A stretch of DNA of 64,000 bases, taken from positions 124,001 through 188,000 of the forward strand of contig PGYR01000001.1 in assembly GCA_002839765.1 (NCBI GenBank). Direction: 5' to 3'. Origin of the DNA: Ignavibacteriae bacterium HGW-Ignavibacteriae-4. GTDB taxonomy: Bacteria > Bacteroidota > Ignavibacteria > Kapaibacteriales > UBA2268. The position numbers were made by a program, and so were the translations under genes. The notes under the pieces are model-generated. The model did no database searches, was not told the DNA's origin, and saw nothing but the letters and a program-made list of their open reading frames with translations. How positions within the stretch are numbered: position 1 is the first letter of the stretch; the number at the start of each line of letters is the position of its first letter. Shown piece by piece: positions 36,808 through 42,415 of the stretch.

Positions 36808-37305
36808 TTATTTAAAAAAATGCTTTATCGGTTCTTCATTTTTAATGTATTTAGTCTTTACCCAAACATTATCTTTGAAATCTAAGTTTAATAAATAATA
36901 GTAATCAATAGATTTTTTTCTTTGAAGTAATACAATTGATGCGGCAATTAAATTTTCGTCATCAACATAAATATTTAAATCACTAATCATAATACTATTC
37001 TCATAATCATCCTTCATTTGATCAATTGGAACAAGTCGATTAATAGTCACAAATTTAGAATCAATTTGTTCATCTAAAATATAAGTATAATAAGGATATA
37101 CATATAATTTAGTATAATCAGAGCAATCTATATCACCATTTTCTTCTAAAATACTTAATATTTCATTTAAAATTTCAATTTTTATCTTATTTACTTCTTT
37201 TACAGATTCAATTCTATTTGGTAATCTGTAACAAGAAGTTATAATAAATAATAGAAACAGAGATATTATTATTCGATATGCTATATTAATAGAGTTCTTA
37301 ATCAT
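36808..37305 (-). CDS. Hypothetical lipoprotein (165 residues)
   Basis: Hydrophobic N-terminus (YRIIISLFLLFIITSC) with a lipobox ending at Cys25. The mature part is helical at first (EVNKIKIEILNEILSILEE), then beta-rich (NLIAASIVLLQRKKSIDYYYLLNLDF), a pattern that would fit a small NTF2- or cystatin-like fold, although that is a guess. It begins nine bases after the IgGFc-domain gene ends and is on the same strand, so the two are likely co-transcribed. No family recognised. Confidence 0.7.
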   Translation of the reverse strand: MIKNSINIAYRIIISLFLLFIITSCYRLPNRIESVKEVNKIKIEILNEILSILEENGDIDCSDYTKLYVYPYYTYILDEQIDSKFVTINRLVPIDQMKDDYENSIMISDLNIYVDDENLIAASIVLLQRKKSIDYYYLLNLDFKDNVWVKTKYIKNEEPIKHFFK

Positions 37306-37314
37306 AATTATCTT

Positions 37315-40161
37315 CTACCTCACCACACTAATCTTCTTTGATAACAGCTGTGTGGTACTTTTCAGGGTTACTATATAAGTTCCAGTTATTAATTTGGTAA
37401 GTGAGATTGTATTTTGCTCGTCAGTTGCAATGCTGATTAACTTTGTACCTTCTAGTGTGTAGATAGATAGGTCATAGAAGCCGTCCTTTAGTACTTTTGG
37501 TAGTAATTCAATACTTGATCCCGTTACATACATATATTGTGCTAATACTTTATCAGAGGCTACTGATGATTCTGGGTCTTTGGCTTTGATTGTTGTTTTG
37601 TGTTCAGTTTTATATGTGAATGAGACTTCTTCTAACTCATTGTTTTTGTCATATTCTTGTATGCCAATACCTAATGAATCAACTAATATTTGTTCATCTT
37701 TTATTTGAGGATACAACTTCGGATTAAATACAATATCTACTATAACTTCACTCTCTGGTTTAATTGGTTTGTTTATATTCCAATCAAATGGACTGATAGA
37801 ACCTATACTGAATCCTTTGTCTTTTTCTTTCAGTTCTATTCTTGATAAATACAAATCTGTTTTGGTTGATAGGTTACGTATTGTGTCTTGCAACTTGATT
37901 GACTTAGAATTATCATCAAAAGTACCGAAGTCATGCTTTTGAGTAGCAAATAACTGAGGGTATAGAGTGCTAACAGATACCTCAGAGAATGGTTTGAATT
38001 CACACTCAGTGATTTGATTACCTTTGTTTACTCCCAATCCTATATAAACAGAGTCTTTGTATGTTTGGTTGTCTTCTATATTATCATCTTTGAAAGTATA
38101 GTTTATATATCTTACTTGGTTAGGTGGAATTGGTGTTCCAGGAGTCCAGCCAATTGGTTCATACGAATCAATTTTAAATTTAGAATTAGTATTCGCTACT
38201 TCTAATCTAGTTATATAAAGTGATTGGTATGAAGACAAGTTTCTAATAGTGTCTTGGAATGCTATAGTTTTGAAATTTGGATTTCTTATTTCATTATAAG
38301 TGGTTTTAATTACCAATTCTGCTTTTGGTTCAGATTCGATGAAAATAGTAGTATCATTACCTGCCTTATCTACAAAGTAAAGTAATGCAGAAGCTGGTAG
38401 ATTCTTTTTTATCTTCTCTAATGACCATTTTAGTGTTTGATTTCTTCCAGGAATGAACTCGCCTGATTCTGTTTCCCATTTGAACTCATAGTTTTCGCCT
38501 GCCATCATATAAGCATCAGCTATATTGGAGCGGGTTTCTTCATTCATAGGCATATCTGTTACTGTTGCTGTATTCAGATTGATATTTCCATCACAATCTT
38601 GTTCGTAATATACAACAGGAGGTAAAGAATCTCCCAAAGTTCTATCATAGACAGAAAATGCAGTTGGTAATCCATAGCCTGCATTCATATCTGTTCCGTA
38701 AGAATAAGCTACAAACTTACTATATTTAGACTTTATATGATAAACTCTATTTCGTTTTATTTCATAAGTAATACTTCCATATTCTTTACCATTATAATCT
38801 TCATCAAATAAATTAAGCTCAATTTCTTGATCTTCATAAGGTTTTACGATTTCTATTAATGAACCCAATGAATCAAACTTAAATAATTCTAAATCCTTTG
38901 GTATAGAACCATTTTCAAGTGGGAAAGTCAAAGCTATATTATTAACATAAAAAGTCGGTGAACCTTCTGTATGCTTGTAAGGAGCGGAGTATATTGCAGA
39001 AGTTACTCCTTGTTCAATACAAGGAACTTGAAATATTAAAGGTTCATTATCATAAATTCCAATTACTTTGTGACCTTCATAAGTATTATAATATGTAACT
39101 GAAATGGGTTTGTCAGAAGATATAACAGAAGGTTTAATGGAATTATTCTTTCCTGAAGGAATTTCAATATATGCTTCTCCAAAATCAGCACCTCCACCTT
39201 TTTTAATATTTCCAACAAATTCACCTTCTAGAAATACATTAGTATTATCTTCAGATGCAGAAATTCTAAAGTAAGAACCTTTATTTCTTCTAATTAAAGG
39301 AGTAAAAAAGAATTTCTTCCCCCATATTTTTGTAGGAAACTCCATTTGAGTTATATAATCAAATGATCCAGTATCCAACGGCATATAAGTTTCATTTACA
39401 CCAGATACAATCGAAATTGGTTTGTCTGATTCTATAAGACTTCCTGATAAATCTTGCAGATTGCCACTAGATCCTAATAGTAAGACATCCCCACTATTCA
39501 TTACTTTAGTAGTTGATTCCCCTGTTTTAATAGATTTTCCATCCTTAAATTTTACTTCATCGTTTGCCAATCTACCACCCCCTAAAACTAAATTAATGTT
39601 TGTGTTATCATAATGTGATACAATAGCCGTATAAGAGGGGATTAGTCCATTAGAAAACTTGCTTGAAAAGTAGGTCATATTTATATACTTTTCAGATGAC
39701 CCAATAGTTGGGATTGCATAATACCCATCTGAGTTTTCATGATGTTTAAGAAAAACATATACTACAATAGGGAACTCAGATTTGATATGAAGTGCCATAT
39801 CCTTATAAAGATCAGAGGGTTTGGGGTTTTCAAAATCATCTGAAGTTGGTTCAATATAAATATTATCTATTTCTAAAAGTGTAACTATATTAGGCAAAAC
39901 CTCTATTGTATTCTTATAATTACTACCCTTTATATTAATATCAACTTTTGTCCGCACTGAACTAAATAAATATATTTTTCTTTTAGGTATATCAAACTTA
40001 AAAATACTCCTAGGAGTAACAGTCAGCCAAAACTCCCTCCCTGCGTTACCAGAGTTCTGCATAACCTCAAAATCAGATTTCACTTTCTCTACATCTATTT
40101 TTGAGTATGCAAAAATAGGGGTAAAGAGTAGTATTAGGCAAATTGTATTTAGTGTTTTCAA
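37315..40161 (-). CDS. Exported IgGFc-binding-domain protein with type IX sorting domain
   Basis: 948 residues. A signal peptide (MKTLNTICLILLFTPIFAYS) is followed by an IgGFc-binding-like N-terminal domain (about 35-500: NAGREFWLTVTP, PIVVYVFLKHHENSDGYYAIP, GSSEKYINM, ISGVNETYMP, WGKKFFFTPL, ISVTYYNT). Two ASH-like beta repeats come next (about 640-860) and a C-terminal type IX sorting-like domain (GTYIVTLKSTTQLLSKKISVVR). Predicted to be surface-exposed. The start is TTG at 40161, which overlaps the upstream lipoprotein stop by four bases (TTGA). The first 45 codons recur, nearly identical, at 41789-41923. Confidence 0.82.
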   Translation of the reverse strand: MKTLNTICLILLFTPIFAYSKIDVEKVKSDFEVMQNSGNAGREFWLTVTPRSIFKFDIPKRKIYLFSSVRTKVDINIKGSNYKNTIEVLPNIVTLLEIDNIYIEPTSDDFENPKPSDLYKDMALHIKSEFPIVVYVFLKHHENSDGYYAIPTIGSSEKYINMTYFSSKFSNGLIPSYTAIVSHYDNTNINLVLGGGRLANDEVKFKDGKSIKTGESTTKVMNSGDVLLLGSSGNLQDLSGSLIESDKPISIVSGVNETYMPLDTGSFDYITQMEFPTKIWGKKFFFTPLIRRNKGSYFRISASEDNTNVFLEGEFVGNIKKGGGADFGEAYIEIPSGKNNSIKPSVISSDKPISVTYYNTYEGHKVIGIYDNEPLIFQVPCIEQGVTSAIYSAPYKHTEGSPTFYVNNIALTFPLENGSIPKDLELFKFDSLGSLIEIVKPYEDQEIELNLFDEDYNGKEYGSITYEIKRNRVYHIKSKYSKFVAYSYGTDMNAGYGLPTAFSVYDRTLGDSLPPVVYYEQDCDGNINLNTATVTDMPMNEETRSNIADAYMMAGENYEFKWETESGEFIPGRNQTLKWSLEKIKKNLPASALLYFVDKAGNDTTIFIESEPKAELVIKTTYNEIRNPNFKTIAFQDTIRNLSSYQSLYITRLEVANTNSKFKIDSYEPIGWTPGTPIPPNQVRYINYTFKDDNIEDNQTYKDSVYIGLGVNKGNQITECEFKPFSEVSVSTLYPQLFATQKHDFGTFDDNSKSIKLQDTIRNLSTKTDLYLSRIELKEKDKGFSIGSISPFDWNINKPIKPESEVIVDIVFNPKLYPQIKDEQILVDSLGIGIQEYDKNNELEEVSFTYKTEHKTTIKAKDPESSVASDKVLAQYMYVTGSSIELLPKVLKDGFYDLSIYTLEGTKLISIATDEQNTISLTKLITGTYIVTLKSTTQLLSKKISVVR

Positions 40162-40784
40162 ATTGATTCAAGTATTAATGGGTTTTCAGATTCTTTCATT
40201 TCTATTAGTAAATTATTAATAAGCTCGATAAATATTTCTTTCATTTCTAAATCAAAACAGTATTCAAAACTATATTGCCCCAATCCTTTAAAGGTATTGT
40301 AAGGGAATTTCGAATAATCTGTACAACAAAATTCATAATTAATTCCATATTCTGTGAAATGCAAATCGAGTCTTTTATAACTCTTAGCTTTGAAGTAAAT
40401 ATACAAAAAAATTTCTATTACTTCCTTATTTCCTCTATGAATAACAGACTCATCAATTTGTTTGATTTTATATTCTCTATTCCATATTAATTTTTCCTGA
40501 AGCTCCTCATTATTTGTATATGTTTTATCATTTAACTTTAATAAAAACTCAACTAATAAATCTTTTTTAATTAATTTAATATTATGAGAATTAATATTTT
40601 TCTTAAATATTGTCTCGTGTCCGAGAATATTTGTAGAGTCATATTTGATACTTTTATAGACTGTTAAATTAATAGAGTCGAGGTCATTAACAGATATTGT
40701 TCTTAAAAGTTCTTTTGAATTTTCCTCAAAACCTGGTCTGCATGAAGAAAGTAAAAAAATACATAAAATTAATGTGGATTTCAT
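40158..40784 (-). CDS. Hypothetical lipoprotein (208 residues), possible immunity partner
   Basis: A short signal MKSTLILCIFLLSSC with lipobox Cys15. The rest is charged, with alternating helices and strands, an internal Cys-Cys (YEFCCTD), and no family that I recognise. Its ATG directly follows the Rhs-tip stop (TAAATG), and its stop overlaps the next gene's start. This tight linkage just downstream of a toxin-like tip is the usual place for an immunity gene. That role is inference only; a lipoprotein immunity protein would act in the periplasm. Confidence 0.7.
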   Translation of the reverse strand: MKSTLILCIFLLSSCRPGFEENSKELLRTISVNDLDSINLTVYKSIKYDSTNILGHETIFKKNINSHNIKLIKKDLLVEFLLKLNDKTYTNNEELQEKLIWNREYKIKQIDESVIHRGNKEVIEIFLYIYFKAKSYKRLDLHFTEYGINYEFCCTDYSKFPYNTFKGLGQYSFEYCFDLEMKEIFIELINNLLIEMKESENPLILESI

Positions 40785-41792
40785 TTATTTCCTCAAGTTC
40801 TCTTCTGTAGCCTTAACACCTAGTCTAAAAGCTTCTTCTGATAAATTATTTGTCTTATCTTTTGCATAGAAAGACCCTTCAGTTTGAAAAGTTTCTTTAT
40901 CGTAATTTTTACCATTTTGTTTGTCATGACTAACATTATCTCCACTTTCACTTGGGTGGTTAGTAGTTCTAATCTTGCTTAGAACGTGCTCATAATCAGA
41001 TGAACCTGGTTTTAAGCTTTCGAAAATTGGTACTTCACCTACTTTATAATCTAAATCATACATCATAATTTCAATATAGTTAGAATGATAATAAAAATCT
41101 TGATCTTGATGGTTATCCCAATTTTTATACTCACCATTTCTAAGCATTGGTGCCAATTCTTCATTTGACAAGTTATCTAAATGAGCCATATTATCATAAA
41201 AAGGTCCGGCTCCTAAAACAGTTTCAATAAACAATTGACTTATTAAACTAAATAAATCAGGTTCTCCGTGTACATTAAAATGAGCAATTTGATCCATCAG
41301 TATATGATCTGTAATAAAAGCTTTCCCATTAACATCAACATTATTTATTGGGTTATTAGCACTATACTGATACGGAGTCCAGCCATAATAACTTGTCCAC
41401 AGCGGGTCTATACTTATAAACCTACCCGTCTCGTATTCGTATTTTCTCACTCCGTGGTCTCCTAGCTTCGATTCGTTATCTTTTTCTTTACCTACCCAGT
41501 TTTGTAGGGTGCTTTCTGTTTCAGTTAGGTTACTATTCGTCCATCTCTCCCCACCGTAAGGGTTGTGAGTTTGCATAGATGTTGGTGTTATCCCAAATAT
41601 ACCTACTTTTTTATATGTCTGTACTAATGTTCCCAAATGGTCATATATGTTAAAGTGCTTTTTCCACGAAGAAGAAGCCCTATCATACTTGTAACTAACC
41701 TGCGGTGATAGTCCACTACCAAATACGTTTAGTTGAGCAGGGTAAATCATAATCTGTTCACTTTTTGATGGATAGGGATAGTAGAAGCCCAA
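40785..41792 (-). CDS. Orphan Rhs core tip with Het-C/phospholipase-C-like C-terminus (5' truncated)
   Basis: 335 residues. Residues 45-156 are the end of an Rhs/YD-repeat core: YDHLGTLVQTY, GVRKYEYETGRFISIDPLW, YGWTPYQYSANNPINNVDVNG. Residues 157-335 form a variable tip with MAHLDNL (202-208), NHQDQDFYYHSNYIE (227-241), SHDKQN (288-293) and an alpha-helical end with Ala and Thr spacing. This resembles the Het-C/zinc-phospholipase-C-like fold, where QDFYxHSNWVE and HDxLNKD hold metal ligands. The bulk of an Rhs protein is missing. There is no natural start: TTG at 41792 lies at a junction with a duplicated leader, and ATG at 41750 overlaps that leader's stop (ATGA). See the leader entry. Confidence 0.7.
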   Translation of the reverse strand: MGFYYPYPSKSEQIMIYPAQLNVFGSGLSPQVSYKYDRASSSWKKHFNIYDHLGTLVQTYKKVGIFGITPTSMQTHNPYGGERWTNSNLTETESTLQNWVGKEKDNESKLGDHGVRKYEYETGRFISIDPLWTSYYGWTPYQYSANNPINNVDVNGKAFITDHILMDQIAHFNVHGEPDLFSLISQLFIETVLGAGPFYDNMAHLDNLSNEELAPMLRNGEYKNWDNHQDQDFYYHSNYIEIMMYDLDYKVGEVPIFESLKPGSSDYEHVLSKIRTTNHPSESGDNVSHDKQNGKNYDKETFQTEGSFYAKDKTNNLSEEAFRLGVKATEENLRK

Positions 41793-41923
41793 AACTCCCT
41801 CCCAGCGTTACCAGAGTTCTGCATAACCTCAAAATCGGATTTTACTTTCTCTACATCAATTTTTGAGTATGTAAGAATAGGGGTGAGAAGTAGAATTAAA
41901 AAAAATGTTTGTAGTGTTTTCAT
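41747..41923 (-). pseudogene. Duplicated leader of the IgGFc-domain gene, joined to the Rhs tip
   Basis: ATG at 41923 to TGA at 41747 gives 58 residues. The first 45 repeat the start of the gene at 40161 (39 of 45 identical, the last 27 all identical, ending SGNAGREFW). After Trp45 the similarity stops and the sequence becomes Rhs sequence read in the wrong frame (ASTIPIHQKVNRL, stop). One extra G in the run at the junction (TTTTGGG) would join leader and Rhs tip into a single frame of about 379 codons. So this is either a broken fusion, a sequencing error, or a short leader gene coupled through ATGA to the Rhs frame. Confidence 0.75.
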
Positions 41924-41935
41924 AGTATAATTGAT

Positions 41936-42415
41936 TTATTTGCATTCTTTAAAATAAAGAGGTTCATAAAGTTCATTCTTTTGAATCGATACAAGAATAA
42001 TTTGATCTTCAATTATTCTAATATAAATCTCTACTAAAAAAAAAAGATCCTGTTCTTTCAATTCTATATCAACAGAGGTGAACAAAGTAGGAGATTCTTC
42101 AATTCTAATTGATCTTAATACAAATGCATTTTTACTAAACCCTAAAGATAATAAGTTGGGGTAACTATTTACAATGACTAAATTGTTCCTTTCTAAGTAA
42201 TCAATATTTCTATTAACAAAGAGTGGGACTGAATAGAAAGTATACTTTATATTCGTATCTATTAGACTATGACTTATTAAACTATTTACAGAATAATTTA
42301 GAATTCTTTCTTCAAGTTTTTTATAAAGATTTACTGACTCAATAGTTTTACTACTACTACATGAAATAATAGCAAATAAAAGTAAACCTAGTAATATTTT
42401 ACTCCTTATTTTCAA
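41936..42415 (-). CDS. Hypothetical lipoprotein (159 residues)
   Basis: Signal KIRSKILLGLLLFAIISC with lipobox Cys19, then SSSK. The mature part is a mix of helix (LYKKLEERILNYSVNSLIS) and strands (FFLVEIYIRIIEDQIILVSIQ). No family recognised. The start is TTG at 42415, inside the last codons of the biotin-carrier gene (17-base overlap), which suggests readthrough expression from the carboxylase operon. It is followed after 12 bases by the duplicated leader. Confidence 0.65.
   Translation of the reverse strand: MKIRSKILLGLLLFAIISCSSSKTIESVNLYKKLEERILNYSVNSLISHSLIDTNIKYTFYSVPLFVNRNIDYLERNNLVIVNSYPNLLSLGFSKNAFVLRSIRIEESPTLFTSVDIELKEQDLFFLVEIYIRIIEDQIILVSIQKNELYEPLYFKECK

Follow-up and report, generated by a model that had tools for sequence, protein, structure and literature searches.

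Toxin domains of the Het-C type have been listed among the polymorphic toxins since 2012, when Zhang et al. described Tox-HET-C (PMC3482391; PF07217 Het-C, PF25107 VWA7_N) with its ordered signature of H, [DE], HxD, HxxxDxxxH, Nxx[DE] and [ST]G, and linked it by prediction to phospholipase C and S1-P1. A phospholipase-like relative, YdjM, also of the PLC/Het-C superfamily, was proposed in 2021 as an Rhs C-terminal toxin (PMC8557891). As to the genes, Poole et al. (2011, PMC3150448) described orphan cdiA-CT/cdiI and rhs-CT/rhsI modules, in which a core-end fragment carries a variable toxin and is followed by an immunity gene, the whole being exchanged as a unit and often arrayed behind a full-length gene. 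Rhs tips are released from the core by an aspartyl autoprotease with the motif PxxxxDPxG (PMC8765631). Neither toxin domains of the Het-C type nor orphan Rhs modules are new, then. A sequence-only reading of the locus that we describe here had suggested a new effector class, or a relic of one; the new class is not supported, because Tox-HET-C had been predicted in polymorphic toxins in 2012 and YdjM was already placed on Rhs tips in 2021. What appears to be new, as far as our searches of the open-access papers show, is that the two occur together, in a compact form and in this phylum, with a candidate immunity gene.

The window (that is, the whole stretch of 64,000 nucleotides that was analysed) contains the following features.

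37315-40161, minus strand: 948-aa IgGFc-binding-domain protein with a type IX sorting tail (sub-threshold match); the conserved right flank
40158-40784, minus strand: candidate immunity lipoprotein, 208 aa, lipobox LSSC; exchanged with the tip, weakly like the lipoprotein that goes with the tip in genome G059
40161-41342, minus strand: exchangeable cassette (tip and immunity), 1,182 bases; genome G002 has 1,686 unrelated bases instead
40785-41327, minus strand: toxin tip (P0002), 180 aa, with a Het-C-like motif
40785-41750, minus strand: orphan Rhs-end/tip gene, 321 aa; G002 orthologue with the same ATG, frame readable from TTG 41792
41343-41750, minus strand: conserved end of the Rhs core; its DNA is 89% identical to that of G002, with a dN/dS of about 0.06
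41747-41923, minus strand: 58-aa ORF, made from a second copy (134 bp, 88% identity) of the 5' end of the IgGFc gene, signal peptide included
41936-42415, minus strand: 159-aa lipoprotein, an insertion that separates the biotin carrier gene from the Rhs end and is missing at the same site in G002

The 335-aa reading frame at 40785-41792 from which the earlier reading started does exist; its strand, which had been left unstated, is the minus strand, and the plus strand is full of stops there. The TTG at 41792 is the mere opening of the frame, with a stop codon immediately before it. The true start is probably the ATG at 41750, since the orthologue in G002, a genome of the same genus, begins exactly at the matching ATG, and since in both genomes this codon overlaps the upstream stop as ATGA (the TGA of the biotin-carrier gene in G002, that of the 58-aa ORF in the window). 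A short Rhs-end gene whose start is conserved is thus present in both species. The 58-aa ORF is probably the scar of a tandem duplication or recombination; an in-frame fusion of its duplicated signal peptide with the Rhs end was considered and rejected, the ORF stopping at the ATGA overlap. Another small lipoprotein gene lies beside the module at 36808-37305 (minus strand), and this gene and the one at 41936-42415 are possibly the leftover immunity genes of earlier cassettes.

The encoded protein has two parts, about 136 residues from the end of the Rhs core and then the 180-aa tip. TIGR03696 (Rhs_assc_core) matches residues 77-156 of the 335-aa frame with an E-value of 8.1e-14 and a variable C-terminal domain comes next, which bears out the earlier description of an orphan Rhs tip. 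The same description had the Rhs body missing, and correctly so: the YD-repeat body is absent from the 321-aa gene, as expected for an orphan module, and we therefore file the module as orphan only. The protein is too short for an Rhs cocoon, and the search of the source assembly yielded no full-length Rhs body, just one weak RHS_repeat match genome-wide. Both autoprotease aspartates are present (SIDP...DVNG), the DPxG position reading DVNG with Lys as the next residue.

G002 (locus L041) offers a natural comparison. The same Rhs-end gene stands there at the same place; the similarity ends near 41343, within the NNPIN-encoding sequence just before the core end, and restarts at 40160, where the IgGFc gene begins. 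The swap thus maps to 40161-41342 in the window versus 9133-10818 in L041, with conserved flanks on both sides, and the pair found in G002 instead is a JAB-like tip followed by a 350-aa leucine-rich-repeat protein. The G+C content also changes in steps: it is 40% for the Rhs end, 31% for the tip and 24% for the immunity gene. An Rhs-CT/immunity module is recognised by a conserved core end with a variable C-terminal domain, and by the joint exchange of the tip and the next gene between conserved flanks; both are found here. Over the 136 codons of the Rhs end, the window and G002 differ by 30 synonymous and 7 amino-acid changes (dN 0.036, dS 0.57, the tip codons lying outside this measure), which indicates strong purifying selection on the Rhs end, itself therefore no decayed relic; the suggestion that the tip might be the relic of an effector is accordingly unlikely. 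Judged from these alignments, and because a conserved Rhs end bears an unrelated tip/partner pair in G002 between conserved flanks, the locus is a maintained, exchangeable toxin/immunity module rather than a decayed relic.

The tip of G002 (L041:10213-11226, minus strand) shows, when read by eye from the sequence, a JAB/MPN-like HDHP...PSDPSD pattern, and has no match in Pfam. The leucine-rich-repeat protein behind it is an unusual type of candidate immunity protein.

In this lineage orphan Rhs ends are a regular feature. The source genome has six Rhs core-end matches, in open frames of at most 527 aa, and each of the four core-end ORFs that were read has a small lipoprotein, signal-peptide or membrane protein closely behind it. 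Order-wide, core ends occur in 57 of 123 genomes, in frames of more than 2,000 aa as well as in short ones. In G045 (L073/L074, C1:2494000-2518500) a full-length Rhs gene heads a series of short Rhs-end genes, every one of them paired with a small partner, and in G089 (L075, C71) several tandem Rhs-end genes have a common first part and differ in their tips, an arrangement also shown by orphan cdiA-CT/cdiI and Rhs modules (PMC3150448).

These arrays are of the kind that would be expected if the module were a silent cassette, its tip stored and untranslated until recombined, and only the immunity lipoprotein being used, against relatives. Orphan cdiA-CT/cdiI and Rhs modules are classically understood in this way (PMC3150448), and the view agrees with a tip gene that has neither an in-frame signal peptide nor a body. 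It sits less well with an ATG and an ATGA overlap common to both species (many orphans have no start codon at all), or with the dN/dS of 0.06 in the Rhs end, and we hold it to be a serious possibility, somewhat short of an even chance. A bolder idea, which seems to us quite improbable, is that bodyless Rhs-end toxins are working weapons, exported with the help of adjacent type IX sorting-tail proteins (such proteins are encoded beside Rhs-end/tip genes in the window, in L028 and in L008); immunity would then be provided by surface or periplasmic lipoproteins, and some of the toxins, such as that at L030 4433-5452, would have a signal peptide of their own.

Two other loci deserve mention in their own right. 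At L028:4845-6419 (minus strand) another orphan Rhs end of the source genome carries a metzincin-like metallopeptidase tip (HELGHNFGLNH); it comes directly after the gene of a 1,497-aa protein with a type IX sorting tail, and a lipoprotein gene comes next. At L030:4433-5452 (minus strand) a 339-aa protein has an apparent signal peptide at its N-terminus, then what remains of an Rhs core end, and a tip at its C-terminus, with a lipoprotein gene behind it; here a bodyless Rhs toxin may be exported alone.

We now turn to the tip itself. Among about 970 genomes of the phylum, together with a scan of genome contigs, it has one recognisable relative, in G059 (L008, the MAG SZAS-90). That tip is 37% identical to the window tip and terminates a 678-aa Rhs ORF, longer than the window gene, which is followed, with an overlap of 4 bases, by the gene of a 210-aa lipoprotein. 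The phages, plasmids and viral contigs searched hold no relative of the tip, and no motif DNA patterns were found in the viral contigs; a sequence search of solved structures gave no relative, and PADLOC no match. Invariant in both tips are H8, D12, H49-L-D51-N, H73-Q-x-Q-D77-F-Y-x-H81-S-N83-Y-x-E86 and H134-D135, which fall in the window as follows.

41292-41306, minus strand: first conserved His and Asp, H8...D12 of the tip, 6 residues past the predicted Rhs cleavage point
41172-41183, minus strand: HxD element of the tip, H49-L-D51-N52
41070-41111, minus strand: core motif of the tip, H73-x3-D77-x3-H81-S-N83-x2-E86
40923-40928, minus strand: conserved H134-D135 of the tip

The motifs quoted in the sequence-only reading (NHQDQDFYYHSNYIE, MAHLDNL and SHDKQN) are all present in the window protein. 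The pattern HDxLNKD, which it had also invoked, is unmatched as such, just His134-Asp135 of the tip being conserved there. Of the Tox-HET-C signature, the first five elements are present in order in both tips, while the [ST]G element reads SG in the window tip and NG in that of G059. When the tip and its relative were each shuffled 200,000 times, chance produced H-x3-D-x3-H-x-N-x2-[DE] in 95 and 68 of the shuffles, and the complete ordered signature in 445 and 285, respectively. As a certified Het-C reference we used L011, a Bacteroidota protein above the Pfam Het-C cut-off (69 bits), whose motif HILEDYFAHSNFCE has a spacing identical to that of the tip motif, and which reads EHIDN upstream where the two tips read AHLDN and QHLDN. 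Searched against Pfam, the motif peptide of the relative returns only VWA7_N (E 2e-4) and Het-C (E 0.04; 12.8 bits for a cut-off of 21, a match seen for the relative only) and that of the window only VWA7_N (E 0.03), all of these matches lying below the curated cut-offs; the certified L011 protein also matches VWA7_N at the same place. This supports the earlier proposal of a Het-C-type motif. The whole 180-aa tip matches no family above its curated cut-off in profile searches, and its whole-length hhalign comparison with the L011 protein is not significant. AlphaFold, run with the two tip sequences in both orders, gave mostly helical and unreliable models (pLDDT 48 and 39.5), and Foldseek and VIA-align found no match for the better, still low-confidence, one. 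With motif matches below the cut-offs, a non-significant hhalign and such models, we call the Het-C type of the tip likely rather than shown. The spacer between HxD and HxxxD has 24 residues in the tip versus about 95 in L011, and the tip would therefore be a compact Het-C version.

The same spacer could be turned round in favour of a convergent motif on an unrelated toxin domain, and so could the sub-threshold level of all the Pfam matches, or the fact that the best Pfam match of the window tip alone is SNaCT14 (E 0.01, under the cut-off), a candidate for which no support was found. Convergence would have to account for the exact spacing, for the invariance in both tips of every residue of these signature elements, and for a motif in the relative that returns Het-C and VWA7_N only, and we think it rather unlikely.

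The tip shares with Tox-HET-C the ordered signature as far as Nxx[DE] and the C-terminal toxin position. It differs in having only 180 aa and short spacers, in being placed on an Rhs end, in remaining below the Pfam cut-offs, in its [ST]G element, which is not conserved, in coming from Bacteroidota, a lineage missing from the published list (PMC3482391), and in having a candidate immunity gene, where none is listed there. Unlike YdjM, it gives no match to the YdjM model (a comparison at the level of the model, not residue by residue). With regard to the modules of Poole et al., ours differs in lying between unrelated metabolic and surface-protein genes, in having its own ATG coupled to the preceding gene, and in belonging to an assembly in which no full-length body was found.

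The 208-aa lipoprotein is likely to be the immunity protein of the tip, because the tip and the next gene move together. It resembles the 210-aa lipoprotein of L008 weakly, just behind the lipobox; the likeness is reached by 8 of 1000 shuffles over the whole length, by 16 of 1000 for the mature part and by 63 of 1000 with a looser gap cost, so that kinship of the two is suggestive only. A common ancestry of all the neighbouring lipoproteins was rejected, the L008 partner alone exceeding the shuffles. Such a partner points to a tip that acts in the periplasm or on membranes, and for this reason we prefer a phospholipase to a nuclease. The argument is only moderate, because in the source genome lipoproteins also follow other Rhs ends whatever their tip, and so tell little about the activity of this one tip. 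A nuclease of the S1-P1 kind, with the same Het-C-type metallohydrolase fold and acting in the cytoplasm, would be natural for a group related to both phospholipase C and S1-P1 (PMC3482391), but the lipoprotein would not meet a cytoplasmic toxin, and we regard this version as unlikely. The same objection, that an exported antidote could not neutralise a toxin in the cytoplasm, weighs on an internally expressed toxin-antitoxin module like the orphan rhs of Salmonella Typhimurium; in spite of that precedent (PMC7043789) and of the start codon that the gene has of its own, we find this very improbable.

We think it reasonably probable, therefore, that the locus is an orphan Rhs-CT/immunity module and that its tip belongs to the Het-C type as a compact, all-helical metallohydrolase acting on membrane phospholipid. 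The make-up of the module, the exchange of the cassette, the purifying selection on the Rhs end and the conserved signature are observations; the fold, the zinc, the phospholipase activity, the site of action and the delivery are inferred. Recombination within the conserved Rhs-end DNA would join the tip to an Rhs delivery body, which would carry it to a neighbouring cell; once severed where the Rhs core ends, the tip would bind two or three zinc ions through its His and Asp residues and attack the phospholipid of the membrane from the periplasm, the 208-aa lipoprotein protecting the producer and its kin. Cleavage is predicted to leave a new N-terminus six residues ahead of the first conserved His. 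S1-P1 and phospholipase C use their own N-terminal residue as a zinc ligand, and cleavage from Rhs might thus complete the metal site of the tip; this is speculation by analogy.

The Het-C group also occurs in fungal incompatibility and in a vertebrate surface protein. If our assignment is right, a predicted and little-tested toxin domain extends to Rhs tips in Bacteroidota, and the 208-aa lipoprotein would be the first candidate immunity protein for the group. The tip is small (180 aa) and its antidote would be at hand, so that the enzymatic activity of Het-C domains, unproven in the literature that we examined, would then become directly testable.
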